The notes beneath the pieces were generated by a model. That model worked only from the letters and a program-made list of their open reading frames with translations, searched no databases and was not told where the DNA came from. DNA of 64,000 nucleotides from Planctomycetota bacterium (GTDB lineage: Bacteria; Planctomycetota; Phycisphaerae; Phycisphaerales; UBA5793). The DNA lies in the NCBI GenBank assembly GCA_963205185.1, contig CAUJHZ010000030.1:1-64000 (forward strand), given 5' to 3'. A program made the position numbers and the translations under genes. Of this stretch, positions 13,351-64,000 are shown piece by piece (position 1 is the stretch's first letter; each line of letters starts with the position of its first letter).

Positions 13351-15420
13351 ATGGGAAGATTCGATCTCGACAGTCTGCTGAGCGAACTGGGCGTCAAACG
13401 ATCTGGCGGCCAGAAGGCCTCCGCCGCCGCCACGGAAGAGCCGGGCGGCTCGCCGGATGTGCACAGCGATGAGTCGTCGCACAACGAGACTGATCCATCA
13501 GCGCCGCCCGAGAAGATGTCCTCCACCACTCCCCCCACAACTCGAGCGTTTGTGCGCAATGATCCGCGCGAGACGCCGCGCCCGCCCGACGTGGCGGGCC
13601 GGGGACTGAACGCCGAAGTGGACCCGGCGCGCGTGGCCGAAAAGGCCGACCGCCTTTCGCTGCGGCCCGACGATGCGCTCGGGTTGCTGTGGGGGCCGAC
13701 CGAGGGGCAGCGGGGCGCGGTTCGCGGGCGCGACCTCGGCGCCGAACTGCAGGCGCGCGGCGTCATCGCCGCCGATCAGTTGACCAGTCTGCGCACCGTG
13801 CTGCGCCAGAGCCCCGGCCGCACCGCCTCCGAGGTGCTCCTCGAAATGGGAGTGCCCGAGGAGCAGATCCAGCAGGTGGTGGCGCAGATCCACGGGCTCG
13901 AGTTCGCCCGGATCAATCCCGATGACGGGTTCCACAGCAGTTACTTCAATCGCCTCGGCGCCGACTTCTGCCGGCGACACGGCGTGCTGCCGCTGCGCAA
14001 GGACGGCCTGCGGCTGGTTGTCGGTACGGTCCATCCCGACGATGTGTTCGTCATCGACGAAGTCCGCCGTCTGCTGGGCGTGAGCGCGGTGCGGCAGGTG
14101 ATCGTCACCTCATCGGACATCAACCTGATCATCGAACTCCAGTCGGCCGGTGAAGAGCAGGACATCGCCGTCAACGACATCCTCGCCGATATCGACGAAG
14201 GCGACGTCGAAGTCGTCGAGAACGATCAGGAAGACGTGGACTTCGCCAAGCAGGCGGGCGAGTCTCCGGTCATCCGCTACGTCAACTTCATCATCCAGAC
14301 GGCGCTCAAGGAAGGCGCCTCGGACATTCACATCGAGCCGGCCGAGAAGAAGTTGAAGGTGCGATTCCGAATCGACGGCATCCTGTTCGACATGATGAAT
14401 CCGCCGCACAAAATGCATGCGGCGATCATCTCGCGCCTCAAGATCATGGCCAATCTGGACATCTCGGAGCGCCGCCTGCCGCAGGACGGGCGCATCCGCG
14501 CCGTCGTGGCCGGCCGCAAGCTCGACCTGCGCGTGTCCACGCTGCCGACCGTCACGGGCGAGAAGTGCGTGCTGCGTATTCTCGACGCCCGGTCGATCGC
14601 CGTGGGTCTCGAACAACTCGGATTCGACGAGACGTCGCTGCACATCTGGCGCCGGCAGATCAAGCAGCCGCACGGCATCATTCTCGTGACCGGCCCGACG
14701 GGCTCGGGCAAGACGACCACGCTCTATTCGTCGCTGCGCGAGATGGACACGAAAAAGCTGAACGTATCGACGACTGAAGACCCGGTGGAGTATCACCTCG
14801 ACGGCATCACGCAGGTGCAGATTCACGACAAGATCGGCATGTCATTCGCGGCGGCGCTGCGGAGCCTGCTGCGCCAGGATCCGGATGTGGTGATGGTCGG
14901 CGAAATCCGCGACGCCGAGACGGCGCGCATCGCCATCCAGGCGGCATTGACGGGCCACCTCGTGCTCAGCACGCTGCACACCAATGACGCTCCGAGTTCG
15001 GTCACGCGCATGATCAACATCGGCGTCGAGCCGTTTCTGATCGGCGCCGCCCTTAACGCCGTGCTCGCCCAGCGCCTCGTGCGCCGCATCTGCGACCACT
15101 GCAAGACGGCCGACGCCCTGAACGAAGAGATGCAGGAGTTCCTCATGACCCAGGGCCTGGACGCAGCACAGGTGAGCAAGGGCGCCGGCTGCGACCGCTG
15201 CCGCCAGACCGGTTATGCGGGCCGTCTGGGCATCTATGAACTGCTCGTGCTCGACGACGTGACGCGGGACGCGATCGCGCGAAGCCCGTCGGTCACCGAG
15301 TTCCGGCGCATGTGCGTCGAGCGCGGCATGGTGACGCTCCGCCAGGACGGGCTGGCCAAGGTGGTTCGCGGACAGACGACGATTGAAGAGGTGCTGCGTG
15401 TGACGGAAGCGACGATCTGA
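13351..15420 (+). CDS. pilB: Type IV pilus / type II secretion assembly ATPase (PilB/GspE)
   Basis: A 689-residue hexameric motor ATPase. A disordered N-terminal segment (1-125) precedes a GspE_N/MshEN domain (about 125-280) and the ATPase core. Core motifs are Walker A GPTGSGKTTTLYSSL (about 447-461), the Asp-box DIHIEPAE, Walker B DVVMVGEIRDAET (about 511-523) and the His box. The paired CxxC zinc site typical of PilB/GspE is present (CDHC near 579 and CDRC near 614) and is lacking in PilT-type retraction motors, so this is the extension motor. It follows the PilP-like gene by 29 bases. Confidence 0.92.
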   Translation: MGRFDLDSLLSELGVKRSGGQKASAAATEEPGGSPDVHSDESSHNETDPSAPPEKMSSTTPPTTRAFVRNDPRETPRPPDVAGRGLNAEVDPARVAEKADRLSLRPDDALGLLWGPTEGQRGAVRGRDLGAELQARGVIAADQLTSLRTVLRQSPGRTASEVLLEMGVPEEQIQQVVAQIHGLEFARINPDDGFHSSYFNRLGADFCRRHGVLPLRKDGLRLVVGTVHPDDVFVIDEVRRLLGVSAVRQVIVTSSDINLIIELQSAGEEQDIAVNDILADIDEGDVEVVENDQEDVDFAKQAGESPVIRYVNFIIQTALKEGASDIHIEPAEKKLKVRFRIDGILFDMMNPPHKMHAAIISRLKIMANLDISERRLPQDGRIRAVVAGRKLDLRVSTLPTVTGEKCVLRILDARSIAVGLEQLGFDETSLHIWRRQIKQPHGIILVTGPTGSGKTTTLYSSLREMDTKKLNVSTTEDPVEYHLDGITQVQIHDKIGMSFAAALRSLLRQDPDVVMVGEIRDAETARIAIQAALTGHLVLSTLHTNDAPSSVTRMINIGVEPFLIGAALNAVLAQRLVRRICDHCKTADALNEEMQEFLMTQGLDAAQVSKGAGCDRCRQTGYAGRLGIYELLVLDDVTRDAIARSPSVTEFRRMCVERGMVTLRQDGLAKVVRGQTTIEEVLRVTEATI

Positions 15421-15558
15421 CAAGCGGCGGGGGCGTGCGAAACTCCCCGGCCCTGAGCGTTATTGGTTATCCGGTGGCGGCATTCGGCCGATGATGCGGG
15501 CAGCGCCGCGCCGTCGCGGTTCCCCGGGCCCGTTCGATTCGATGAGGGGTGTCATTCG

Positions 15559-16614
15559 ATGGATTTCAACACGATCCTGAAGACCGCGGCCGAGCACAAT
15601 GCCTCCGATATTCACATTGTCGCGGGGCATCCGCCGCTGATGCGCGTCCATACCATCGTCACGCCGATGGATTATCCGGTCGTGACGCCCGAGTCGGCAC
15701 AGCGCATTCTCGAAGCGGTCGCCCCGCCCAACGCCATCGAGACGTTCAAGCGGCAGTCGGACGCGGACTTCTCCTACGAAGTGCCCGGCCTGTGCCGCTA
15801 TCGCGTGAATGCGCACATGCAGCGCAAGAGCGTCGCCATGGCGTTTCGCGCCATCAAGTCCAAGGTGCCGCCGCTCGAATCGCTCAACCTGCCCGATGTG
15901 ATCGGCCGGCTGACCTACCTGCCGCGCGGCCTGGTGCTCGTCACGGGCGATACGGGTTCGGGCAAATCCACCACGCTGGCCGCGATGATCCAGGCGATGA
16001 ATGAACGCTACCGCAAGCACATCATCACGCTCGAAGACCCGATCGAATACGCGTTCGAGTCGAACAAGAGCGTGATCGAGCAGCGCGAACTCGGCGCCGA
16101 CATGCCCAGTTTCGCCTCGGGGCTCAAGCACATTCTGCGTCAGGACCCGGACATCATCCTCGTCGGCGAAATGCGCGACCTGGAAACGACGGCCCTGGCC
16201 ATCACCGCGGCCGAAACCGGCCACCTCGTGCTCAGCACGCTGCACACGGTTAACGCATCGCAGACGGTCGAACGTATCGTGGACATGTATCCGGCGGATC
16301 AGCAGAACCAGATCCGTTCGATGCTCGCCAACACGCTGCAGGCCGTCGTGTCGCAGACCCTGTTCAGCCGCATCGACCAGGCCGGCATGGTGCCGGGCGT
16401 TGAGATCATGCTCTGCACGCCCGCGGTGCGGAACATCATCCGCGAGAACCGCTCGTTTGAAATCCCGAACGTGATCGAAACGAACCGCAACCTGGGCATG
16501 GTGAGCCTCGACACGTCGATCAGCGAGTTGTACTTCAACGGCATGATCAGCCGCGAAGACGCGATTGCACAGGCGGCGTATCCGGACAAACTGGACCGCG
16601 CCCTGGCGGCATGA
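15559..16614 (+). CDS. pilT: Type IV pilus twitching motility ATPase PilT
   Basis: A 351-residue retraction motor. It has the PilT opening DFNTILKTAAEHNASDIHI, Walker A VTGDTGSGKSTTL (about 129-141), Walker B PDIILVGEMRDLET (about 196-209), the HVLSTLHT-type His box (HLVLSTLHTVNAS) and the C-terminal AIRNLIRE-like motif seen here as AVRNIIREN. There is no zinc site, as expected. The ATG at 15559 has AGGGGTG 6-8 bases upstream and is preferred to the longer frame from 15463, whose N-terminus lacks homology. Retraction implies true dynamic pili (twitching or DNA uptake) rather than only secretion. Confidence 0.92.
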   Translation: MDFNTILKTAAEHNASDIHIVAGHPPLMRVHTIVTPMDYPVVTPESAQRILEAVAPPNAIETFKRQSDADFSYEVPGLCRYRVNAHMQRKSVAMAFRAIKSKVPPLESLNLPDVIGRLTYLPRGLVLVTGDTGSGKSTTLAAMIQAMNERYRKHIITLEDPIEYAFESNKSVIEQRELGADMPSFASGLKHILRQDPDIILVGEMRDLETTALAITAAETGHLVLSTLHTVNASQTVERIVDMYPADQQNQIRSMLANTLQAVVSQTLFSRIDQAGMVPGVEIMLCTPAVRNIIRENRSFEIPNVIETNRNLGMVSLDTSISELYFNGMISREDAIAQAAYPDKLDRALAA

Positions 16615-16688
16615 CAACGAGGCCCACGGCGGGCCGGAGATCGACGCGGTCGCCGCGGCCGGCGAACGTGGTGGGTGAGGAGTGAGGC

Positions 16689-17915
16689 ATGGCGCTGTAT
16701 CGGTATCAGGCTAAGGGAGGCAACGGCGAGATGCGCTCGGGCACGCTCGCCGCTGACAGCGCCATGATGGCGGCGGCGATCCTGCGCAACCAGGGCCAGC
16801 GCGTCATCAATCTCTCGCCGGTCGAGACGAACAACGTCAAGAGCTTCCGTTCGACGCTCAAGAGCCTCAACTACAGTTCGGGACCCAGCCAGAGAGACGT
16901 GCTCGATTTCACCACGCAGATGGCGGTGATGATCCGTGCAGGCATTTCCATCCGCGCGGCGCTCGAAGGCATTGCCGACCAGGTGCAGAATCCCAAGTGG
17001 CGCGAGATCCTCAAGAACGTGCGGCAGGACGTGGAGGGCGGTCGGCAGTTCTCCGAGGCCATCGCCCGCTATCCAAAGCTGTTCAGCCCGCTGTACGTGA
17101 ACATGGTTCGCGCTTCGGAAATGTCCGGTTCGTTCGCGAAGATGCTCGACCGCATCGCGGCGTACATGAGCCAGCAGCTCGAGACGCGCAAGATGGTCAT
17201 CGGCGCGATGATCTACCCGGGCATCATCGGCACCATGGCCGTGGGCGTCACGGTCTTCCTGCTCACCTTCGTGCTGCCGCGCTTTGCGATGGTCTTCAAG
17301 GGCAAGGAAGATTATCTGCCCAAGCCGACGGTCTTTCTGATGGCCGTGTCGGCGTTCATGGTGCAGTTCTGGTACGTGCTGCTCATCCTGGCGATCCTGC
17401 TGGGGGTCGGCTTCTTCGTTTTTACGCGAACGCGCGTGGGCCGCACGACCATGGACCGCGTGAAGCTGCGCGTGCCGCTGTTCAAGCGCATGTTCCGCGC
17501 GCTGTACATCAACCGCAGCCTGCACACGATGGGCGAACTGCTCAGCGCCGGCGTGCCGATGCTCGATTCGCTGGCGATCACCGGCGACATCTCGGGCAAC
17601 TCGGTTTATCGGCACCTGTGGCGCTCGGTGTATGCGTCCGTTAAGCAGGGCAAGAAGCTGGTCCAGCCGCTTCAGAAGTCCACTCTGCTGCCCCGAAGCG
17701 TCGTGCAGATGATCGCCGCCGGCGAAGAGTCTGGTAAACTCGCCGACGTTTTACAGGAAATCGCGTCCTATTACAGCAAGGTGCTGCGCGACGCGATAAA
17801 GACGGTGACGAGCATGATTGAACCGATCATGATCATTGTGATGGGTTCGATCGTCGGATTCATCGCGATGGCGATCATCCTGCCAATCTTCAAGATGTCC
17901 TCGCTCGTTAAGTAA
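16689..17915 (+). CDS. pilC: Type IV pilus platform protein PilC/GspF
   Basis: A 408-residue inner-membrane protein with the duplicated GspF domain: first copy about 70-195, containing FTTQMAVMIRAGISIRAALE, and second about 275-400, containing LHTMGELLSAGVPMLDSLAI. Three transmembrane stretches lie at roughly 170-200, 220-250 and 375-400. The N-terminal ALYRYQAKGGNGEMRSGTL is the usual PilC start. It is the platform on which PilB and PilT turn. The start is preceded by GAGGAG. Confidence 0.9.
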   Translation: MALYRYQAKGGNGEMRSGTLAADSAMMAAAILRNQGQRVINLSPVETNNVKSFRSTLKSLNYSSGPSQRDVLDFTTQMAVMIRAGISIRAALEGIADQVQNPKWREILKNVRQDVEGGRQFSEAIARYPKLFSPLYVNMVRASEMSGSFAKMLDRIAAYMSQQLETRKMVIGAMIYPGIIGTMAVGVTVFLLTFVLPRFAMVFKGKEDYLPKPTVFLMAVSAFMVQFWYVLLILAILLGVGFFVFTRTRVGRTTMDRVKLRVPLFKRMFRALYINRSLHTMGELLSAGVPMLDSLAITGDISGNSVYRHLWRSVYASVKQGKKLVQPLQKSTLLPRSVVQMIAAGEESGKLADVLQEIASYYSKVLRDAIKTVTSMIEPIMIIVMGSIVGFIAMAIILPIFKMSSLVK

Positions 17916-54702: not shown

Positions 54703-56655
54703 ATGGACCACCCACCTGACTCATCAGCCCATGCAGCGCGCCGGCGTGCGTGGATTGAAGCGTTGCTCGGCCTGATGCTGTTGATCGCGCCGCTGCTGCC
54801 GGCGCCAGCTCTGCGAGTGGGCCCGCTAGATCCATCGCTCATGCGATCCAACGGCGGGTATGCCTACACGGCTCGCGCCGCCGAACTGGGCCTCAATCGA
54901 CCTCTTCCCGGCCGCGGCACGAGCCTGACTGAAGACGGTCGGCCGCTGACCATTGACCACATGCACAGCGCTATCCGCAGCGCCGGCGGCGGGCGGTATT
55001 CGCCGTGGGGTTCGACGCTCTACTTCTCCGCGACCGACAATTCCGATCCGCGCACCAACGGCCGAGCGTACGTGCTCGTCCTCCGCGCCTCGCTGCTTCA
55101 GCGGCTGACGCTCAATTCGCCGTTGTCGAACTACCTGGCGGCGCTTCTGATGATCGCAGGCGCCTTCCTCCTCTGCCGCGGGCTTGGTTCGACCCGGCCG
55201 CGGCTGGGAGTCAAAGTGAGCGCCGGCGTGGTGCGGTACGCGCCGTTCGATCTTCGCTGCATCCTGCGCGTGGCGCTCGTCTACGTCGCATGGCGCGAAG
55301 CCAGCGCCGATTATTCCGCGCTCCCCCGACTCCTCGAAAGCCCGGCGCTGCACGCGCTCTCGCCGCGATCTCTCGACCGCGGCGCGCAGTGGCTCGGCGC
55401 CGCGCTGCTCAATACGCCCATGAAACTTGCGGTCGTCCAGGTGGCTGCGGTCGCGCTGCTGCTCCTCACGGCGCTGTGCCTGCGCCGGTGGCTCCTGTGG
55501 CTCGCGCTGGCCGCGACGCTGGTCATCGAGTGGACGGCGTACCGCTTTCGCGGCCAACTCCCCGATGTTGATCCAATGCTGGCGCTGCTGCTCCTCGCGG
55601 CGCTCTGGCCGGCATCCTGGCGCGCCGTGACCCGCCCTGGCCGTACCGTCTCAGCATCCGCCACCGCGCTGGGCGTCGCGCTGGCTTCGTACATCGCGGC
55701 CGTGTACTTCATCTGCGGCTGGTCGAAGATCATCACCGACGGTCCGTGGTGGAAAGTCGTTCATCTCGAACTGCTCTACGCGGCGATGATCGTCTGGATG
55801 GGATCGAGCCCGCCCGACTGGCTCGACGGCATCGCGCGCGGCCTGCGCGACCTCTTCCTGCGCTGGCCGTGGTTGGGCGAAGCCTCGGCGCTGCTGACCA
55901 TGATTCTCGAACTGGCCTGGCCGCTGGCGCTGCTGGGCCGCTGGGCGCGACTCGTAGTGCCAGGGTTGATGCTCGCCGCCCACGCGGTGATCTTCCTGAC
56001 CAGCGGCATTCTTTTTCTGCCTTTGGCGCTGACTGGTTTGAGCGTGGTGATTCCATGGAGACGCGTGATGTCGCGCACAGCATCTGAACCGGCGTCCGCC
56101 GAGTCGCCGTTGCGCGCGTGGATGATCTGGCCGGCGGGGATCGCCGCGATGTTCGCCGTCGCACCCGCCATGCACAGCGCCGACTTCTTTCCCTTCTCCA
56201 ACTATCAGCACTTCAACTGGAACCACTCCACGCTCTTAAAGCCGACGATGGCGTATCGCCTCGGCTATCGCGATCGTGACACCGGACTCCTGCGCCCCAT
56301 TCCACCCAACTACGGCGGTTTCATGGACTGCTGGGGCGTCACCCTCGCCGGCCGCGAGGTCGATCTCTATCTCAATGCGGAGTCCGAGCAGCAGCGGCGC
56401 GCGGCATTGGTGCGCCTGCTCCAGTACGCCCGCGCACTGCGGCCGCACCGGAGTTCGCAGCGCCTCGGCGTGCTTTCATGCCCGCCGCATGTGCTCGGCG
56501 CTTCGCGCGAGATTCCCGTCGAGTGGTTCGACGAACTGCACCTGCTGTGCGCCCGCTTCGAAGCGCCGCACGAATCGCTCGATGCGCCGTGGGAAGACTG
56601 CGGCCTTCTGCCCGGCTGGCCCGAGACGGACGACGCCGCTACCCCCGGGCCCTGA
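54703..56655 (+). CDS. HTTM-like polytopic membrane protein
   Basis: A 650-residue protein with around ten hydrophobic segments between residues 20 and 490, followed by a soluble C-terminal part (about 500-650). The stretch AAVYFICGWSKIITDGPWWK and PLALLGRWARLVVPGLMLAA resemble the HTTM (vitamin-K-dependent carboxylase-like) family. Most HTTM members have no known reaction outside true carboxylases. The 3' end overlaps the convergent methyltransferase gene by 17 bases. Confidence 0.6.
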   Translation: MDHPPDSSAHAARRRAWIEALLGLMLLIAPLLPAPALRVGPLDPSLMRSNGGYAYTARAAELGLNRPLPGRGTSLTEDGRPLTIDHMHSAIRSAGGGRYSPWGSTLYFSATDNSDPRTNGRAYVLVLRASLLQRLTLNSPLSNYLAALLMIAGAFLLCRGLGSTRPRLGVKVSAGVVRYAPFDLRCILRVALVYVAWREASADYSALPRLLESPALHALSPRSLDRGAQWLGAALLNTPMKLAVVQVAAVALLLLTALCLRRWLLWLALAATLVIEWTAYRFRGQLPDVDPMLALLLLAALWPASWRAVTRPGRTVSASATALGVALASYIAAVYFICGWSKIITDGPWWKVVHLELLYAAMIVWMGSSPPDWLDGIARGLRDLFLRWPWLGEASALLTMILELAWPLALLGRWARLVVPGLMLAAHAVIFLTSGILFLPLALTGLSVVIPWRRVMSRTASEPASAESPLRAWMIWPAGIAAMFAVAPAMHSADFFPFSNYQHFNWNHSTLLKPTMAYRLGYRDRDTGLLRPIPPNYGGFMDCWGVTLAGREVDLYLNAESEQQRRAALVRLLQYARALRPHRSSQRLGVLSCPPHVLGASREIPVEWFDELHLLCARFEAPHESLDAPWEDCGLLPGWPETDDAATPGP

Positions 56656-58012
56656 CGAGCACCGCCTGACCCGTTGGAAGACGGACGAAGCGCTGGCCGG
56701 TTGCAGCGGCGAACTCATCCACCGCCCGCCGGGCGCCCGGGCACGTCAGGAAGCCGTCATCATCGATCACGATGATGCCGCCGGCGATGAGTCGCGGATG
56801 AAAGAACGCCAGGGCATCGCGCGTCGGCTCGTAGAGATCAACGTCGATGTGCACGAAGGCGAACCTGGCCTCGCGCGCGGCTTCGAAGCATTCCGGAATC
56901 CAGCCGCGATGGAACGCGAGGTCTTCCCAGCGCGCCAGCGTCTGCTTCACATCATCGAGACTCCAGGCCATGTCGCCCGCGCGCCACGGCCGCACGCCGG
57001 CAGCCGGCGCGTCAACGGGCGCGGGTGCGGAAAGCCCTTCGAACGAGTCGAAGAGGTGATGGCGATAGCCGGCGCGTCGCGGCAATTGCTCGGCGTAGTG
57101 ACGAATGATCCACGACCCCAGGCCGCGGTAGATGCCGCATTCGGCCGTGTCGGCGCCGAGCCGGCCCAGCGAAGCCAGGAATTCCTTGATGACGTAGTAC
57201 CGGTCGCGCGGCCCCGGCCCGCACAGCGCTTCTCCCTGCTCGCAGACGCGGGTGAACTCCTCCTCCTGCTGCCAGTAGAGCAGATCATCGCGCAATCGGG
57301 CCGTGGCCGTGGGCGCGGCCTTCTGGTGGGTGTCGATCGGACCGACGATGGTCGCGGGTTCCGCGACCTTCCGGGCAACGAGCACGAGCAGCGCGTATTC
57401 GCGCAGCGAGTCGGCCTGGAGCGGTGCGTCAAAGTCGGTGAGATCATCGAAGCGAGCTTCGCGAATCGAACTGGTCTTGGACAACCGCACGACCTGCGCG
57501 CTTTCGATCTGAAATCCGTTGGCGCGATAGAAGCGCGTGAGCAGTTTCGGATTGATCGAGTAGAAGCCGTGATTCTCCCAACCCGAGAGCGGAGAGACGT
57601 GGAACGCCGCGCCGCCCACTTTGAGCAGGCCGACGATGTGCCGCAGCGCCGCTGCGATGTCGAACACGTGCTCAATCGTCCCGCCGTCGATGACCAGATC
57701 AAAATGAGCCCGCCACCGGTGCGGCACGGGCTGCGAGAGGTCGTGAATGATCGAAGCGCCTTCCGAGTCCAGCAGATCGAGCGATTGGTACTCGCTGAAC
57801 CGAAGCGCCTTGAAGAAGCGATCCGCAGCGATCGCGTCGCCCGGTCGAAGCGCGGGCGGAGAATCAGCGATTGGCGCGCCCGCGAGCAGCGATTCGACTT
57901 CATCAGCTGTTGCGTCGATGTCCTGCACGCCAAGCGTGAGGACGGCGCCGCCCGCCGGCCGGGCGCGGCAGTGTTCCGCGAGAAGGCGCACGACCGGCAG
58001 AGGCAGGCCCAT
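56639..58012 (-). CDS. Methyltransferase-TylF fusion protein
   Basis: A 457-residue two-domain protein. The first half (about 1-235) is a surface-glycan-cluster type methyltransferase with VLTLGVQDIDAT, EYQSLDLLDSEGA and DLVIDGGTIEHVFD-type motifs and HGFYSINPKLLTRFYRANGF. The second half (about 255-455) is a macrocin-O-methyltransferase (TylF) domain: AECGIYRGLGSWIIRHYAEQ, HLFDSFEGLSAP, FVHIDVDLYEPTRDA and DDDGFLTCPGARRAVDEF. Both would methylate sugars. Downstream of the Wzt-type ATPase, hence probably decorating the exported polymer. SD GGGAGAG precedes the ATG. Confidence 0.82.
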   Translation of the reverse strand: MGLPLPVVRLLAEHCRARPAGGAVLTLGVQDIDATADEVESLLAGAPIADSPPALRPGDAIAADRFFKALRFSEYQSLDLLDSEGASIIHDLSQPVPHRWRAHFDLVIDGGTIEHVFDIAAALRHIVGLLKVGGAAFHVSPLSGWENHGFYSINPKLLTRFYRANGFQIESAQVVRLSKTSSIREARFDDLTDFDAPLQADSLREYALLVLVARKVAEPATIVGPIDTHQKAAPTATARLRDDLLYWQQEEEFTRVCEQGEALCGPGPRDRYYVIKEFLASLGRLGADTAECGIYRGLGSWIIRHYAEQLPRRAGYRHHLFDSFEGLSAPAPVDAPAAGVRPWRAGDMAWSLDDVKQTLARWEDLAFHRGWIPECFEAAREARFAFVHIDVDLYEPTRDALAFFHPRLIAGGIIVIDDDGFLTCPGARRAVDEFAAATGQRFVRLPTGQAVLVRARG

Positions 58013-58051: not shown

Positions 58052-59599
58052 TCAGCCGGGGCAATCATTGCACACGCGCTGCCACCGCGATGGCGGGTCG
58101 TAGATCTGCTTGAACGGAAGGTCTTCACGGTAGAAGCCGAATGATTTCACCCGCCATTGACGAAGCAACTGGTCGGCCGGAGTGAAGTGCTTGGCCTTGG
58201 GAGCGATTCCCACACCGATGTGGTACTTGCCATCGCACAAGAACAGCCGCGGGAATTCGACGCGGAACGTCTGCACGCCCCTGCGGATGTTGAGCGGTTG
58301 CGGGCTCGGGCGACCCTGCTCATCCAGCTGTGTCAGGTTCGTCGAGGTGATGATGTGAATGTCCGCTTCGTTGAAGATCTGCACGCCAATCGCGATGCGA
58401 TCCTTGCGCACCCGGCTGTCGACGGTGATTTCGACGGCCATCGTTTCGCCCGTGCGGAAGCGGTCTTTCTCCCGGCCGTCGCCGTCCAGCAGGCGCAGGC
58501 GCACCAGGCGCACCAGTTCGAGGTGCAGGATCGCCGGGCACACATCCTCGGGGTCATCCAGCAGCCGCTGGATGTCGGCGGGCAGGGGGGGATACGCCGG
58601 GTCATCCTGCTCGGATTCGACTTCCGCTCCAACCGCCGGCACCAGCCGGTCCGGGGCGGGGCGATCCAGCGGAAACGCCGGCTCCTCGAGGTGGTTCGCA
58701 GCGATCGACGCCGGCTCGAGGCGCTTTGACTTCTCCTGCTCCAGGGCGAACTCGCTGAGCAGTTGCTTTTCGTACATCTGGGTGATCTCGCGGCTGGGGC
58801 CGTCCGCCACAAGTTCGCCCTCGCGCAGATACAGCGATCGCGAGCAGAGTGTTTCGATGAAGAACATGCTGTGCGACACGACCAGCGCCGTGGCCCCGCC
58901 GCTGCACAGATCGATGATCCGGTTCGTGCACTTCTGCTGGAACGCGAGGTCGCCCGTCGACAGCGCCTCATCCACGATGAGAATGTCGGGCTTGCGGCAG
59001 AACGTGACGGCGAAGGTCAGCCGCGACTTCATGCCGCTCGAGTACGTGCGGAAGGGATGGTCGATGACCCGCCGCAGGCCGGAGAAGTCGATGATCCACT
59101 CTTCGCTCTCGCGGATCTCCGCCTTGCTGTAGCCGAGGCAGTAGCCGCCCATGTAGATGTTTTCGCGGCCGGTGTACTCGTCGTGGAAGCCCGTGCCCAG
59201 CTGCAGGATGGCGCGCAACTGGCCGGCGATGTGGAACGAGCCCTCGGTGTGATCGAGCGTCCCGGCGAGGATGCGCAGCAGCGTGCTCTTCCCCGCGCCA
59301 TTGGCGCCGACCACTCCGACGAGTTCGCCGCGGCCGACCTCGAATGATACATCCCGCAGCGCCCAGCGAGGCTGGTACATGGGCTTGCGCAGCACCATCT
59401 CCTTGAGGATCAGCGAGGGCTTGCGATAGATCTTGTAGAGCTTGGACAGGTTCGACACGCGGATCGCCGGCTCGCGTTTGGCCGCAGCGGGTCGCGCCGG
59501 GGCCCGCCTCTCCTGTGCGACTTCGGCGGGTCTGGCGTCGGCCGTTGGGGGCGCCACTTCAATCGGCCGCGAGGTTGTGCTGGTCAGCAGTTCAGTCAT
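58052..59599 (-). CDS. wzt: O-antigen/polysaccharide ABC transporter ATPase (Wzt-like) with C-terminal binding domain
   Basis: A 515-residue protein. ATPase domain about 45-290: Walker A GANGAGKSTLLRIL, signature YSSGMKSRLTFAV, Walker B DILIVDEALSTGD. The C-terminal part (about 355-500; GREKDRFRTGETMAVEITVD, GRPSPQPLNIRRGVQTFRVE) is the Wzt carbohydrate-binding domain that recognises the terminal cap of the polymer. The partner permease (Wzm) is not in the window. Methyl caps are common recognition marks for this type, which fits the methyltransferase neighbours on both sides. Confidence 0.9.
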   Translation of the reverse strand: MTELLTSTTSRPIEVAPPTADARPAEVAQERRAPARPAAAKREPAIRVSNLSKLYKIYRKPSLILKEMVLRKPMYQPRWALRDVSFEVGRGELVGVVGANGAGKSTLLRILAGTLDHTEGSFHIAGQLRAILQLGTGFHDEYTGRENIYMGGYCLGYSKAEIRESEEWIIDFSGLRRVIDHPFRTYSSGMKSRLTFAVTFCRKPDILIVDEALSTGDLAFQQKCTNRIIDLCSGGATALVVSHSMFFIETLCSRSLYLREGELVADGPSREITQMYEKQLLSEFALEQEKSKRLEPASIAANHLEEPAFPLDRPAPDRLVPAVGAEVESEQDDPAYPPLPADIQRLLDDPEDVCPAILHLELVRLVRLRLLDGDGREKDRFRTGETMAVEITVDSRVRKDRIAIGVQIFNEADIHIITSTNLTQLDEQGRPSPQPLNIRRGVQTFRVEFPRLFLCDGKYHIGVGIAPKAKHFTPADQLLRQWRVKSFGFYREDLPFKQIYDPPSRWQRVCNDCPG

Positions 59600-59626: not shown

Positions 59627-62600
59627 TCATTTTACGAACCGCTTCACGAACGAGCCGATCGCGCTGCGCTTCGAGAGCACCCCGGGCGGGATTGGCCGGT
59701 CGGTCCGCCGAACGAAGAGGCGGCTGCTGAGCACGAGCAGTTGCGCGTCGGTCATGGCGGCGAAGCGGCCGCTCAACTGCGGCCGGGCCGCGGCCAGTTG
59801 CTCGGGCGTGGCGAAGAGGTTTTCATCGACGCGCACGGTGTCGAAGCCCGCCTTCTCAAAATCCTCGACGAGTTCGTGCGAGCGCACCCGATTGCCGTTC
59901 TCGTTGCGCGACTGCAGGAACAGGCGCTGGTACTCTTCCTCGCTGTACTTGAGAAACTCGAATGGGTGATCGAAATCGCGGTGATCGCGGTAGTCCACCT
60001 GGTGGACGCCAAGTCCGCCGGGTCTCGTCAGGCGCGCCAGTTCGCAGGCGGTGAGGTACGTGTCGCCGACGTGTTCGAGCGTGGCGTTGGAGACGATGAC
60101 GTCGAACGAAGCGTCGGGCAGGTCGCTCGGGGGCGTGGCCAGGTCGCACCCGTGCTGCGAGACAACGCGCCGCGGGTGGCGCGCCGTCGCAAGGATCTCT
60201 TCGATCCCATCCCACCGCGCACGCGGCAGGCGCTGCCGGCCCACCTGCATGAGTTTCGCGTAAAACGCCGGGTGATACGCTGGCTCCCACTGCGCGAGGT
60301 ACTTGTCCAGCACCGCCACGCGCGCGCCCAGCGCCTGGCAGATGAGCATGCTGCCGAAGTTGCGTCCGGGCCCGAGTTCGAGAACGCTCAGGCCGGAGAG
60401 ATCGGGAATGTTCTGCAGGACGCGCACCTTGGTGAAGTCCGGGATCCCGCCTTCTAGCCTGCCGAAGTGCTCGCCGATGCAATAGGCGTAGTCAATCGCG
60501 TTGCGCAGGCAGTAGCCGATCTGGTCGTTGATGCACTTGGTGAATTCAGCTTCGTCATCGCGCGCGTGGGCGACATCGTCGGCGCGGGGCTGGGCGAAGA
60601 CGCGGCCGATGGCGTCCGGCTCGTCCACTTCCGCCGCGGGCTTGCGCACGAACAGCCGGGCGCTGACCACCATGAGTTGCTCGTCGGTCATCGCGGCAAA
60701 GCGTTCGATGAGCCGCGGCCGCATCGCGGCGATGTGCTCGGCGGTTGCAAACAGGTTGGCTTCGACTGCCTCGACATTGAAGGCCGCCCGGCGGAAATCA
60801 TCAGCCAGCTCGTGAGCCCGCACGCGATTGCCCTGGCTGTTGCGCGACTTGATGAACCGCTGAGCGAATTCGTCTTCCTGAACCGCGAGGAATGTGAGCG
60901 GCTCCTGCTGCCTTTCGTGGTCGCGGAAATCGACCTGGTGAATGCCCACGCCGCCGTCGCGCGTCAGTCGCGCCAGTTCGCCGGCCATCTTCTTCGTATC
61001 GCCGATGTGTTCGAGCACGGCGTTGGAGACGATCGCGTCGAATGATCCGTCGCCGTAGGCGCTGGGTGGCTCGGCAAGATCGCCCGAGGCGCTGCGGATG
61101 AGGGTCTCATCGTGCCGGCCGAGTTCGACGAGGCGCCGCAGCGCCGTCCAGTCGGCATACGGGAAGCTGGCCTCGCAGGCGTCGAGCAGCGCGCGGTAGA
61201 GCTTGGGGTGGTACTTCTCATCCCACTGGGCAAGGTACTTGTCGAACACCGCCACCTCGGCGCCGCACGCCTTGCAGATGAGCATGCAGCCGAAGTTCGG
61301 CCCGGGCCCGAGTTCGAGAACGCTCAGGCCGCTCAGATCGGAGAGGACGCCGTAAGGCCCGGGCGCCTCGGCGGGCGCGCCTGCGAGCACGCCGCGCCCG
61401 AACTGACGCGCGACCGCCGAGGCGTAGAAGACGCCGTTGACGATCGCGTAGCGCACGTGCTCGTCGATGGCGCCGGGCACGGCCCAGCGATCTTCTTCGA
61501 GATCTGTTTCCGCGTACTTCTTCTGCCCGCTGCGATTCAAAGGCGCACCCTGCCGCTGGAGAAAGAACCGGCCGCTCACGACTGCGAGCGTCTCATCGCT
61601 CAGCGCCGCGAACTGCGGCTGGAGGCGCGGGCGTACGGCCGCGATGTGCGATGCTTCGGCCCAGATGTTGGCGTCGAAGCGCCGCACCTCGAAGCCCACC
61701 GACTTGAAGTCGTCAGACATGGCGTGCGGCCGCACGCGATTGCCGTTGCCGTTCATCGTCTCGTCAAAGAGTTTCTGGTAGGCCGGATCGGGCATGGTCA
61801 GAAACTCGAGCGGCCGGGTGAAATCGCGGTGGTCGCGGAAATCGACCTGGTGGATGTTGATGCCGCCGGGCCTCGTGAGCCGCGCCATCTCCGCGGCGGT
61901 CTGCGGCACGTCGCCGACGTGTTCGAGCACCGCGTTGGAGACGATGACATCGAACGAGGCGTCGCGAAAGCCGCTGGGCGGGTGAGCGAGATCGGTGCGA
62001 TCCTGCTCGACGATGTCGGGCAGGTGGTCCGCCGCGGCGATGATGCGATCGACCGCCGTCCAGTCGCGCTGGGGCAGCCGTTCGTCAAGCGCCTCTCGCA
62101 GGAACCGGTAGAAGCGCGGGTGGTAGACCTCATCCCAGTCCGCAAGGTACTTGTCGAGCACGGCCACTTTCGCGCCGTAACAGTGCAGCAGCAGCGGCGT
62201 GCCAAAGTGCCGCCCCGGCCCGAGTTCGAGCAGTTTCAGGTTTGCCAGCGGCATGGCCGCGGCGGCGTCGCGACCGAGTTCGCGGCTGATGAGTTCGACG
62301 TATTCGAGAGCGATGCGAATGGCGTAATCCACGTCCTCGCGGACCTGAGCGTCGGTGATGGCGCGCAGGTAGAACCGGCCGCTGATCGGCCGCAGATCGT
62401 CGTCGGACAGAGCGGCATAGCGCAGCGAAAGGCGCGGCCGCAGCGCCTTGAGATACGCCTCGTCGGCGAACATGTTGGGTCCGAAATGTTCGACGCGAAA
62501 GCCAATGCTGCGAAAGACCTGCTGCATTTCGACCGGTCGCAGCCGGTTGCCGCGCGACCAGCGCCCGGCCCGCCGCTGCGCGTCGATCTCCTCGTCGCTG

Positions 62601-63211
62601 AGCGTGAGGAACTCAAGCGGCCGGCTGTAATCCGCGGTGTCGCGAAAATCGACCTGGTGAATGCCGAAGCCGCTCGGTCGCGTGATGCGTCCCAGTTCGC
62701 GCATGAGAGCCGGCAGGTCCACCTGGCTGAGAATCGCGTTGCTTACGATGCAGTCGAAGGACGCATCATTGATCTCCAACGGCCCGGAGAGGCTCGAGAT
62801 CTTGTGCAGACCCAGGGCTGCGCCATCGTACGTGCCGGCTTGAATGACCTCGTCAATCCAGGACCAGTCGGCTTCGGGGTACTCTTCGCGGCCAGTTTGC
62901 CCCAGCGCCTGCAGAAACGCCGGCGCCTCATCGTTCCAAGGCACAAAGTGGGTGTTGATCGCGGCGACGCTGGCGCCAAATGCGCGGCACACCAGCATCG
63001 GGCCGAAGCGATTGGGCGTGCCGAGTTCCGCGATCGCCAGATTCGACAGATCCGGGTGCGGGTGCATCTGCCGCGCCAGGTGGTTGGCCACCGTCTTGGC
63101 GTATTCGTAGCCGTTGTCTAGCGCGAAGCTCACCTCGGCCAGCACCGCCGCATCGAGCGGCGCTTCGACCTGCACGGGCTGACCGGAAAGGCGCGGGGCG
63201 GTTCGTGACAT
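59627..63211 (-). CDS. Tetra-modular methyltransferase-like protein
   Basis: A 1194-residue protein of four repeats of about 270-335 residues: 17-285, 286-554, 555-858 and 859-1194. Repeats 2-4 keep a class I SAM-binding motif (LLELGPGRHFG, VLELGPGPNFG, VLELGPGRNFG), a CYGAKVAVLDKYLADW-type acidic strand and SFDVIVSNAVLEHVGD. Repeat 1 is degenerate (AELGTPNRFG, CIVSNAILSQVDL). Each repeat ends in a GNRVRxHExxxDF stretch and a SGRFFLx-type strand. No partner domains. The ATG at 63211 has AAGGAAG 5 bases upstream and is chosen over 63230-63232. It lies between a glycosyltransferase and wzt, so glycan methylation is likely. Confidence 0.78.
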   Translation of the reverse strand: MSRTAPRLSGQPVQVEAPLDAAVLAEVSFALDNGYEYAKTVANHLARQMHPHPDLSNLAIAELGTPNRFGPMLVCRAFGASVAAINTHFVPWNDEAPAFLQALGQTGREEYPEADWSWIDEVIQAGTYDGAALGLHKISSLSGPLEINDASFDCIVSNAILSQVDLPALMRELGRITRPSGFGIHQVDFRDTADYSRPLEFLTLSDEEIDAQRRAGRWSRGNRLRPVEMQQVFRSIGFRVEHFGPNMFADEAYLKALRPRLSLRYAALSDDDLRPISGRFYLRAITDAQVREDVDYAIRIALEYVELISRELGRDAAAAMPLANLKLLELGPGRHFGTPLLLHCYGAKVAVLDKYLADWDEVYHPRFYRFLREALDERLPQRDWTAVDRIIAAADHLPDIVEQDRTDLAHPPSGFRDASFDVIVSNAVLEHVGDVPQTAAEMARLTRPGGINIHQVDFRDHRDFTRPLEFLTMPDPAYQKLFDETMNGNGNRVRPHAMSDDFKSVGFEVRRFDANIWAEASHIAAVRPRLQPQFAALSDETLAVVSGRFFLQRQGAPLNRSGQKKYAETDLEEDRWAVPGAIDEHVRYAIVNGVFYASAVARQFGRGVLAGAPAEAPGPYGVLSDLSGLSVLELGPGPNFGCMLICKACGAEVAVFDKYLAQWDEKYHPKLYRALLDACEASFPYADWTALRRLVELGRHDETLIRSASGDLAEPPSAYGDGSFDAIVSNAVLEHIGDTKKMAGELARLTRDGGVGIHQVDFRDHERQQEPLTFLAVQEDEFAQRFIKSRNSQGNRVRAHELADDFRRAAFNVEAVEANLFATAEHIAAMRPRLIERFAAMTDEQLMVVSARLFVRKPAAEVDEPDAIGRVFAQPRADDVAHARDDEAEFTKCINDQIGYCLRNAIDYAYCIGEHFGRLEGGIPDFTKVRVLQNIPDLSGLSVLELGPGRNFGSMLICQALGARVAVLDKYLAQWEPAYHPAFYAKLMQVGRQRLPRARWDGIEEILATARHPRRVVSQHGCDLATPPSDLPDASFDVIVSNATLEHVGDTYLTACELARLTRPGGLGVHQVDYRDHRDFDHPFEFLKYSEEEYQRLFLQSRNENGNRVRSHELVEDFEKAGFDTVRVDENLFATPEQLAAARPQLSGRFAAMTDAQLLVLSSRLFVRRTDRPIPPGVLSKRSAIGSFVKRFVK

Positions 63212-63232
63212 CAACACTTCCTTCGATTGCAT

Positions 63233-64000
63233 TCAGGTTCGCACGGCGGCCGGCCGCACCGTCTGCACCGTTGGCGCCGGATTCTCATCTTCGAAAGCAG
63301 CGGGCGTGGAGGCTGGCGCCTCGCGCCGCGGCCGGGGCGTCTCGACCCGCTCCTGGCGCTCGGCGCCGCTGAGCGCCTGCTCGTAGACGCGGCAGGTCAG
63401 ATCCACCATCTGATCGAGATTGAAACAGGCGTCCACGTACTCCTGCGCCGCCACCGCGAACTGCTCGCGCATGGCGCCGCTGGTGAGCAGGCGCTGCAAC
63501 CCAATGACCAGGGCGGCGACATCATCCACGCTGCTGATGTAGCCGGTGGCGCCGTGGGATACCGCATCCGCCGTGCCGCCCGCATCGGTCGCGACGACCG
63601 GCACGCCGATGTGCTGGGCCTCGAGCGCGACGTTCGGGCATCCTTCGTAGCGGCTGGTGAGCAGCAGGACGTCCGCGGCGCTCATGATCTCGACCACATC
63701 GCTCACGCGACCCAGCAGCGTCACCGTCTGCTCCAGATTCCTTCGCGCGATGATCTCGCGGACGCGCGCCTCCAGCGGGCCGCTCCCGGCCACGATGACG
63801 CGGACTTTGGGAAGCCGCTCGCGGAGCAGCGTGATGACCTTGAGCATCAGTTCAGGCTGTTTTTCTTCGTCGAGCCGATTGACCACCGCGACCACCGGCG
63901 CCTCGGTCGGCAGGCCCAGCCGCTGCCGGGCAGCGCGCCGCTGAGCGGGCGTCGGCCGGTCGAAATGCTCGCGGAAGAGGCCGTTGAAGACGATGTGAAA
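63233..64000 (-). CDS. Family 4 glycosyltransferase, C-terminal part (5' end outside window)
   Basis: The frame is open to the window edge (255 residues visible, starting FHIVFNGLFREHF). The GT-B C-terminal domain motifs are evident: VVAVVNRLDEEKQPELML, VRVIVAGSGPLEARVREI, ITLLGRVSDVVE-like text and SRYEGCPNVALEAQHIGVPV with VATDAGG, which is the EX7E donor site region. An Ala/Pro/Arg-rich tail follows. It transfers a sugar from a nucleotide donor in surface polysaccharide synthesis. It is upstream of the four-module methyltransferase and probably in its operon. Confidence 0.88.
   Translation of the reverse strand, partial: FHIVFNGLFREHFDRPTPAQRRAARQRLGLPTEAPVVAVVNRLDEEKQPELMLKVITLLRERLPKVRVIVAGSGPLEARVREIIARRNLEQTVTLLGRVSDVVEIMSAADVLLLTSRYEGCPNVALEAQHIGVPVVATDAGGTADAVSHGATGYISSVDDVAALVIGLQRLLTSGAMREQFAVAAQEYVDACFNLDQMVDLTCRVYEQALSGAERQERVETPRPRREAPASTPAAFEDENPAPTVQTVRPAAVRT

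Follow-up and report, generated by a model that had tools for sequence, protein, structure and literature searches.

The locus analysed here raises the question of what a single bacterial protein with four consecutive methyltransferase (MT)-like modules, the first of which lacks SAM-pocket residues, does within a cluster for polymer export. The gene, here termed QUAD, lies in a window of 64,000 nt (the whole stretch of Planctomycetota DNA that was analysed) belonging to a 4.55-Mb genome assembly. Its longest open frame spans 59627-63232 on the minus strand and encodes 1201 aa. Based on a GGAAG sequence just upstream, and on the frame of the most divergent orthologue, which opens only at the same Met, position 63211 is the likely start. 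Residue numbers of the repeats below follow the 1201-aa frame.

59627..63211, minus strand: QUAD, four-module MT gene, 1194 aa from the likely start (open reading frame and orthologues in congeners)
62366..63145, minus strand: R1, pseudo-methyltransferase module, residues 30-289 (AF2, Foldseek and lost SAM-pocket residues)
61535..62341, minus strand: R2, the most conserved of the four repeats, an MT module with intact motifs, residues 298-566
60614..61468, minus strand: R3, MT module with intact motifs, residues 589-873
59693..60541, minus strand: R4, MT module with intact motifs, residues 898-1180

Pairwise comparison of the repeats over 263-298 aligned residues revealed identities of 46-49% among R2, R3 and R4 and of 37-39% between R1 and these three, far beyond chance. 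A Pfam scan of QUAD returned several Methyltransf_23/11 stretches, with R1 the weakest, on its own barely passing one cut-off (21.2 bits), and a full-chain structural model displayed the same order of strands and helices four times at moderate confidence. The four tandem MT-like repeats in one 1194-residue protein that an earlier note had read from the DNA were thus borne out by repeat identities, by Pfam matches and by four modelled folds. The models of R1 and of the full chain both place QUAD in the class I SAM-dependent MT fold (Pfam Methyltransf_23/11 clan), and the R1 model in particular runs counter to any suggestion that the repeats do not fold as MTs. The full-chain prediction thus recovered four MT-like folds but not their arrangement, since its pTM of 0.40 is too low for module packing. 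None of 23 NCBIfam matches exceeded its own cut-off, leaving QUAD without a family name, and a single-sequence search of the PDB found no chain. Neither Pfam nor NCBIfam detected a kinase family in QUAD, and the full-chain model, at its moderate confidence, contained no uninterrupted helix or coiled coil of ruler length. Two further candidates were rejected: a C-terminal amphipathic membrane helix, because its hydrophobic moment lacked significance in four of the five species, and long antisense ORFs such as 61112-63121 (plus strand), which we regard as coding-shadow artefacts of high GC because the minus frame is conserved.

We found full-length orthologues of QUAD at the same locus in all 4 other congeners examined, each with four repeats, 1193-1223 aa long and 63-92% identical. 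This survey of copy number (four repeats in 5 of 5 congeners) contradicted an assembly error as the source of QUAD, which intact orthologues in 4 other genomes rule out. A reported stop within the orthologue of genome G002 was likewise rejected, as its frame runs uninterrupted through 1193 aa and all four repeats. QUAD was absent from the one examined genome of another genus in the same family, and relatives outside the genus carried one family domain each among 298 sampled genomes of the class and 392 of the phylum, a survey restricted to Planctomycetota and non-exhaustive, with 6-8 candidates scored per genome. A search of plasmids for QUAD relatives yielded only two weak Caballeronia matches. 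The four-repeat arrangement looks like a maintained invention of the genus, neither decay nor assembly error.

In a phylogenetic tree, the copies of each repeat from the five species grouped together as a separate clade, with no sign of concerted evolution, indicating that the duplications predate the genus. These results supported the internal duplication proposed in the earlier note, and placed it before the radiation of the genus. Grouping of the 20 repeats as one clade that excludes the single-domain copy L050 had p 0.3. Elsewhere, single-domain relatives of the repeats are often found next to GT4 genes or within glycan clusters, and QUAD would have arisen by repeated internal duplication of such a single-domain glycan-cluster MT. 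An exception to the glycan setting is L050 (3219-4286, minus strand), an extra single-domain member in genome G004, which adjoins two BNR-repeat proteins. Another single-domain member (L103, 3599-4516, plus strand) sits on a contig from IMG/VR, a viral collection.

The first module was compared with 45 other family domains, comprising the 15 R2-R4 domains of the five species and 30 sampled single domains. Its positions of interest are as follows.

63002..63031, minus strand: degenerate SAM loop of R1, AELGTPNRFG in place of LELGPGxxFG, residues 68-77
62723..62728, minus strand: site of the lost Glu-His pair in R1, residues 169-170, SQ here and SQ or NQ in orthologues
62330..62395, minus strand: R1-R2 junction LRPISGRFYLRAITDAQVREDV, residues 280-301, the longest invariant run of QUAD

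The second Gly of the SAM loop is Pro in all five R1 orthologues and Gly in 45/45 of the other domains. The beta-2 acid is replaced by Asn or His in 5/5, and the His of RDH is also missing from all five. Scored against the class I SAM landmarks, R1 thus retained 0/5 for the second loop Gly, the acid, the Glu and the His, whereas SAM-loop Gly, beta-2 Asp, Glu-His, HxxD, RDH and NRxR were each present in 15/15 R2-R4 domains, and residues lost from R1 were almost always present in the 30 sampled single domains. Both the loss of the glycine-rich SAM loop and that of the EH after SNA had been noticed earlier, and both recur in every orthologue, which supports a non-catalytic first module. R1 retains the Asp of HxxD and, apart from one His for Asn among the five orthologues, NRxR. 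Of the positions invariant in active relatives, it keeps 10/20 in the N-terminal part (through SNA and the next turn) and 20/22 in the C-terminal half, after the SNA/post-beta-4 motif. By analogy with class I MTs in general, the conserved C-terminal half of R1 is taken as a putative acceptor-binding surface.

Further comparisons of the congeners showed that R1 is under constraint. Its dN/dS was 0.10-0.31, compared with 0.06-0.39 for R2-R4, with dS near or above 1 for many distant pairs, and 53% of its residues were invariant across the five species. An AF2 model of R1 from a 50-sequence alignment reached a pLDDT of 92.8, and its top Foldseek matches were MTs. The 22 residues of the R1-R2 junction were invariant and gap-free, while the R2-R3 and R3-R4 linkers varied in both length and sequence. 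R1 is a preserved pseudo-methyltransferase. The earlier description of it as decayed, in the sense of eroding, does not hold, because the same substitutions are fixed in 5/5 orthologues under purifying selection like that on the active repeats. We infer that R1 and R2 make up one fixed unit, with R1 either binding the acceptor or supporting R2. A precedent for a degenerate partner of this sort is METTL14, whose MT fold helps METTL3 by keeping the complex intact and by binding substrate (PMC5023411).

The neighbouring genes point to the possible substrate.

63233..64000, minus strand: 3' part of a GT4 glycosyltransferase gene (PF00534/PF13439) that extends to contig position 65353, upstream of QUAD
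58052..59599, minus strand: Wzt ATPase with a Wzt_C cap-binding domain (PF00005, PF14524), downstream of QUAD
56639..58012, minus strand: second MT of the cluster, with an N-terminal MT-like part and a TylF-like half (PF05711, PF13578, weak PF08242)

The Wzt_C domain matched PF14524 at 35.3 bits (cut-off 30.4), and NCBIfam polysaccharide-export ATPase models matched the protein too. The GT4, Wzt and TylF-like MT genes are syntenic with QUAD in 5/5 genomes, with a further MT gene, MTcc, beyond GT4. Domain matches and synteny thus supported the polymer-export setting with glycosyltransferase and Wzt flanks that had been described earlier. The four genomes with a longer contig stretch continue with AsnB, a radical-SAM protein, Wzm and a further conserved protein, then with one or two P-loop sulfotransferase-like proteins identified by eye. 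In contig stretch L011 two such proteins, also recognized by eye, are adjacent (14862-17746, minus strand), and genome G001 apparently keeps one. We also observed a domain of about 90 residues (GGGRYSHWxxxLxFSSSDNSDPRTNGRxY) in four proteins of the QUAD neighbourhood and in another planctomycete. Its carriers near QUAD are the radical-SAM protein, the protein at L011 13495-14865, a small ORF and an ORF at 54703, and it occurs at 54991 of the window (plus strand), at about 10532, 12130 and 14508 of L011 (minus strand), and at about 642 of L108 (plus strand) as well as in the radical-SAM ORF of L108 (14313-16001, minus strand). Those Pfam and NCBIfam scans that covered the carriers gave this domain no name. 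In other bacteria, what the Wzt_C domain recognises is a chain end that carries a modification, such as the 3-O-methyl mannose of Aquifex (PMC9445017).

MTcc lies two genes upstream of QUAD, just outside the window (L011 6263-8470, minus strand). Pfam assigns it an MT domain, and its C-terminal ~280 residues, which differ in length between species, read by eye as a likely coiled coil. In 5/5 genomes its motif I carries Trp instead of the middle Gly, which leaves its own methylation activity uncertain. Alignment of its N-terminal ~200 residues with the QUAD family domain by hhalign (E 1.3e-5, probability 81%, 61 columns) suggested that this region may hold a further, very degenerate member of the family. 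Two genomes of a different planctomycete family, G446 and G525, encode a protein in which a single QUAD-type domain is joined to a domain of the MTcc type (E 7e-40 and 40% identity against MTcc), and the fusion in G446 adjoins Wzt (41%), GT4 (38%) and a radical-SAM protein. A phmmer search of MTcc against PDB chains returned 37 MTs, none named WbdD. Terminators of ABC-exported polymers carry a coiled-coil ruler (PMC11231755), as does WbdD (PMC3482155), and by this analogy MTcc looks like a WbdD-type terminator.

These cumulative results suggested, with a probability of roughly 55%, that QUAD is a three-site glycan O-methyltransferase with a non-catalytic R1, acting on an ABC-exported polymer. 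R2, R3 and R4 would all be SAM-binding modules that methylate the acceptor. R1, its SAM pocket gone but the opposite side of the fold retained, would assist R2 without catalysis, by binding the acceptor or in a structural role, and R3 and R4 would hang on the longer, variable linkers. MTcc would be the probable chain-length ruler and terminator and the partner of QUAD on the lipid-linked polymer, so that methylation of the end or backbone precedes export by Wzm/Wzt. Within this proposal we infer the three active sites, the binding role of R1, the choice between cap and backbone and the sugar acceptor itself, the last from the gene neighbourhood alone. Considering that the nearest solved tandem MTs are phosphobase N-methyltransferases, a non-sugar acceptor is possible. 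Comparisons of QUAD were made on genome assemblies, with no biochemically known relative among the sequences.

How the three presumed active sites would share the work could be read in two ways. They may have diverged for different hydroxyls or for successive residues, a possibility we hold open without favouring it. R2-R4 are only 46-49% identical, yet keep their catalytic landmarks and are each separately conserved in the genus, and the closest solved tandem MTs, the phosphoethanolamine N-methyltransferases (PMTs), split successive methylations between domains, the N-terminal domain of the nematode enzymes carrying out the first step and the C-terminal domain the later ones (PMC10269165); however, HQVDFRDH and GNRVR, near the presumed active site, are almost alike in R2-R4 and give no sign of regiospecificity. 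That equivalence of landmarks would instead suit an avidity or processive design, in which three equivalent catalytic modules and a binding module hold a long polymer and modify many units per encounter, as would the variable R2-R3 and R3-R4 linkers and the polymer-export neighbourhood. End-capping alone would not need three equivalent sites, and we consider this design somewhat doubtful.

A similar degree of doubt attaches to QUAD being the chain terminator itself, with its product read by Wzt_C. Its gene has GT4 and Wzt as immediate neighbours, Wzt domains are known to read methylated caps (PMC9445017), and the Trp in motif I of MTcc in 5/5 genomes means that MTcc might not methylate by itself. 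Known terminators, however, have a coiled-coil ruler (PMC11231755), and it is MTcc that appears to have one, whereas QUAD is without a long coiled-coil helix. Dismissal of R1 as drifting duplication debris, which would make QUAD a three-domain MT with a useless N-terminus, could appeal to its complete loss of SAM landmarks and to the long branch leading to the R1 group in the tree, but is highly improbable given that purifying selection acts on R1 as it does on the active repeats and that 53% of R1 is invariant in five species; simple decay is ruled out by this selection, by the 22-residue invariant junction and by identical losses in 5/5 R1. Beyond the three-site glycan O-methyltransferase that we prefer, an unlikely and more elaborate scheme would have R1, locked to R2, hold the glycan while three catalytic modules methylate several sites close to the chain end, yielding a multiply methylated cap read by Wzt, the job once done by a single terminator-fused module having moved to the quadruplicated protein as the terminator's own copy degenerated.

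Of the known systems compared with QUAD, WbdD of E. coli O9a and K. pneumoniae O3 is likewise an MT in an ABC-transporter-dependent glycan cluster, beside a Wzt with a cap-binding domain, but it joins a methyltransferase-kinase to a coiled-coil ruler, whereas QUAD consists of four MT repeats with no kinase found and no coiled coil; in layout MTcc is closer to WbdD than QUAD is. The PMTs (plant PMT, nematode PMT1/PMT2) are tandem class I MTs and the closest solved tandems by profile and fold, differing from QUAD in their two modules, phosphobase acceptor and lack of a glycan cluster. Orthology with them is not supported, as no PDB chain was found by single sequence and the profile matches were weak and local. 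RsmC, a bacterial rRNA MT with tandem MT-like halves, was a tandem structural match to the full-chain QUAD model, although it has two modules and an rRNA acceptor. In RsmC the N-terminal half no longer binds SAM and contributes to binding and folding. METTL3-METTL14 shares with QUAD the pairing of an active MT with a degenerate MT fold (PMC5023411), but consists of two chains, acts on RNA and is not homologous at the family level. Single-domain Planctomycetota glycan-cluster MTs (~300 aa) share LExGPG, SNAxxEH, HxxDxRDH and GNRxR, the distant ones partly; they have one family domain, and none has a SAM pocket as degenerate as that of R1. A literature search returned nothing relevant on tandem MTs in polysaccharide pathways, four-domain MTs, methylated planctomycete glycans or RsmC duplication.

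If the proposal is true, four MT modules of the same family in one chain, one of them a pseudo-module that selection has preserved throughout a genus, would be an unusual enzyme architecture, and QUAD would offer an in-chain test case for dead MTs that help live ones. The cluster points to a planctomycete polymer pathway that resembles WbdD-Wzm/Wzt and in which several MTs share the methylation, and it suggests that these bacteria carry a methylated surface glycan.
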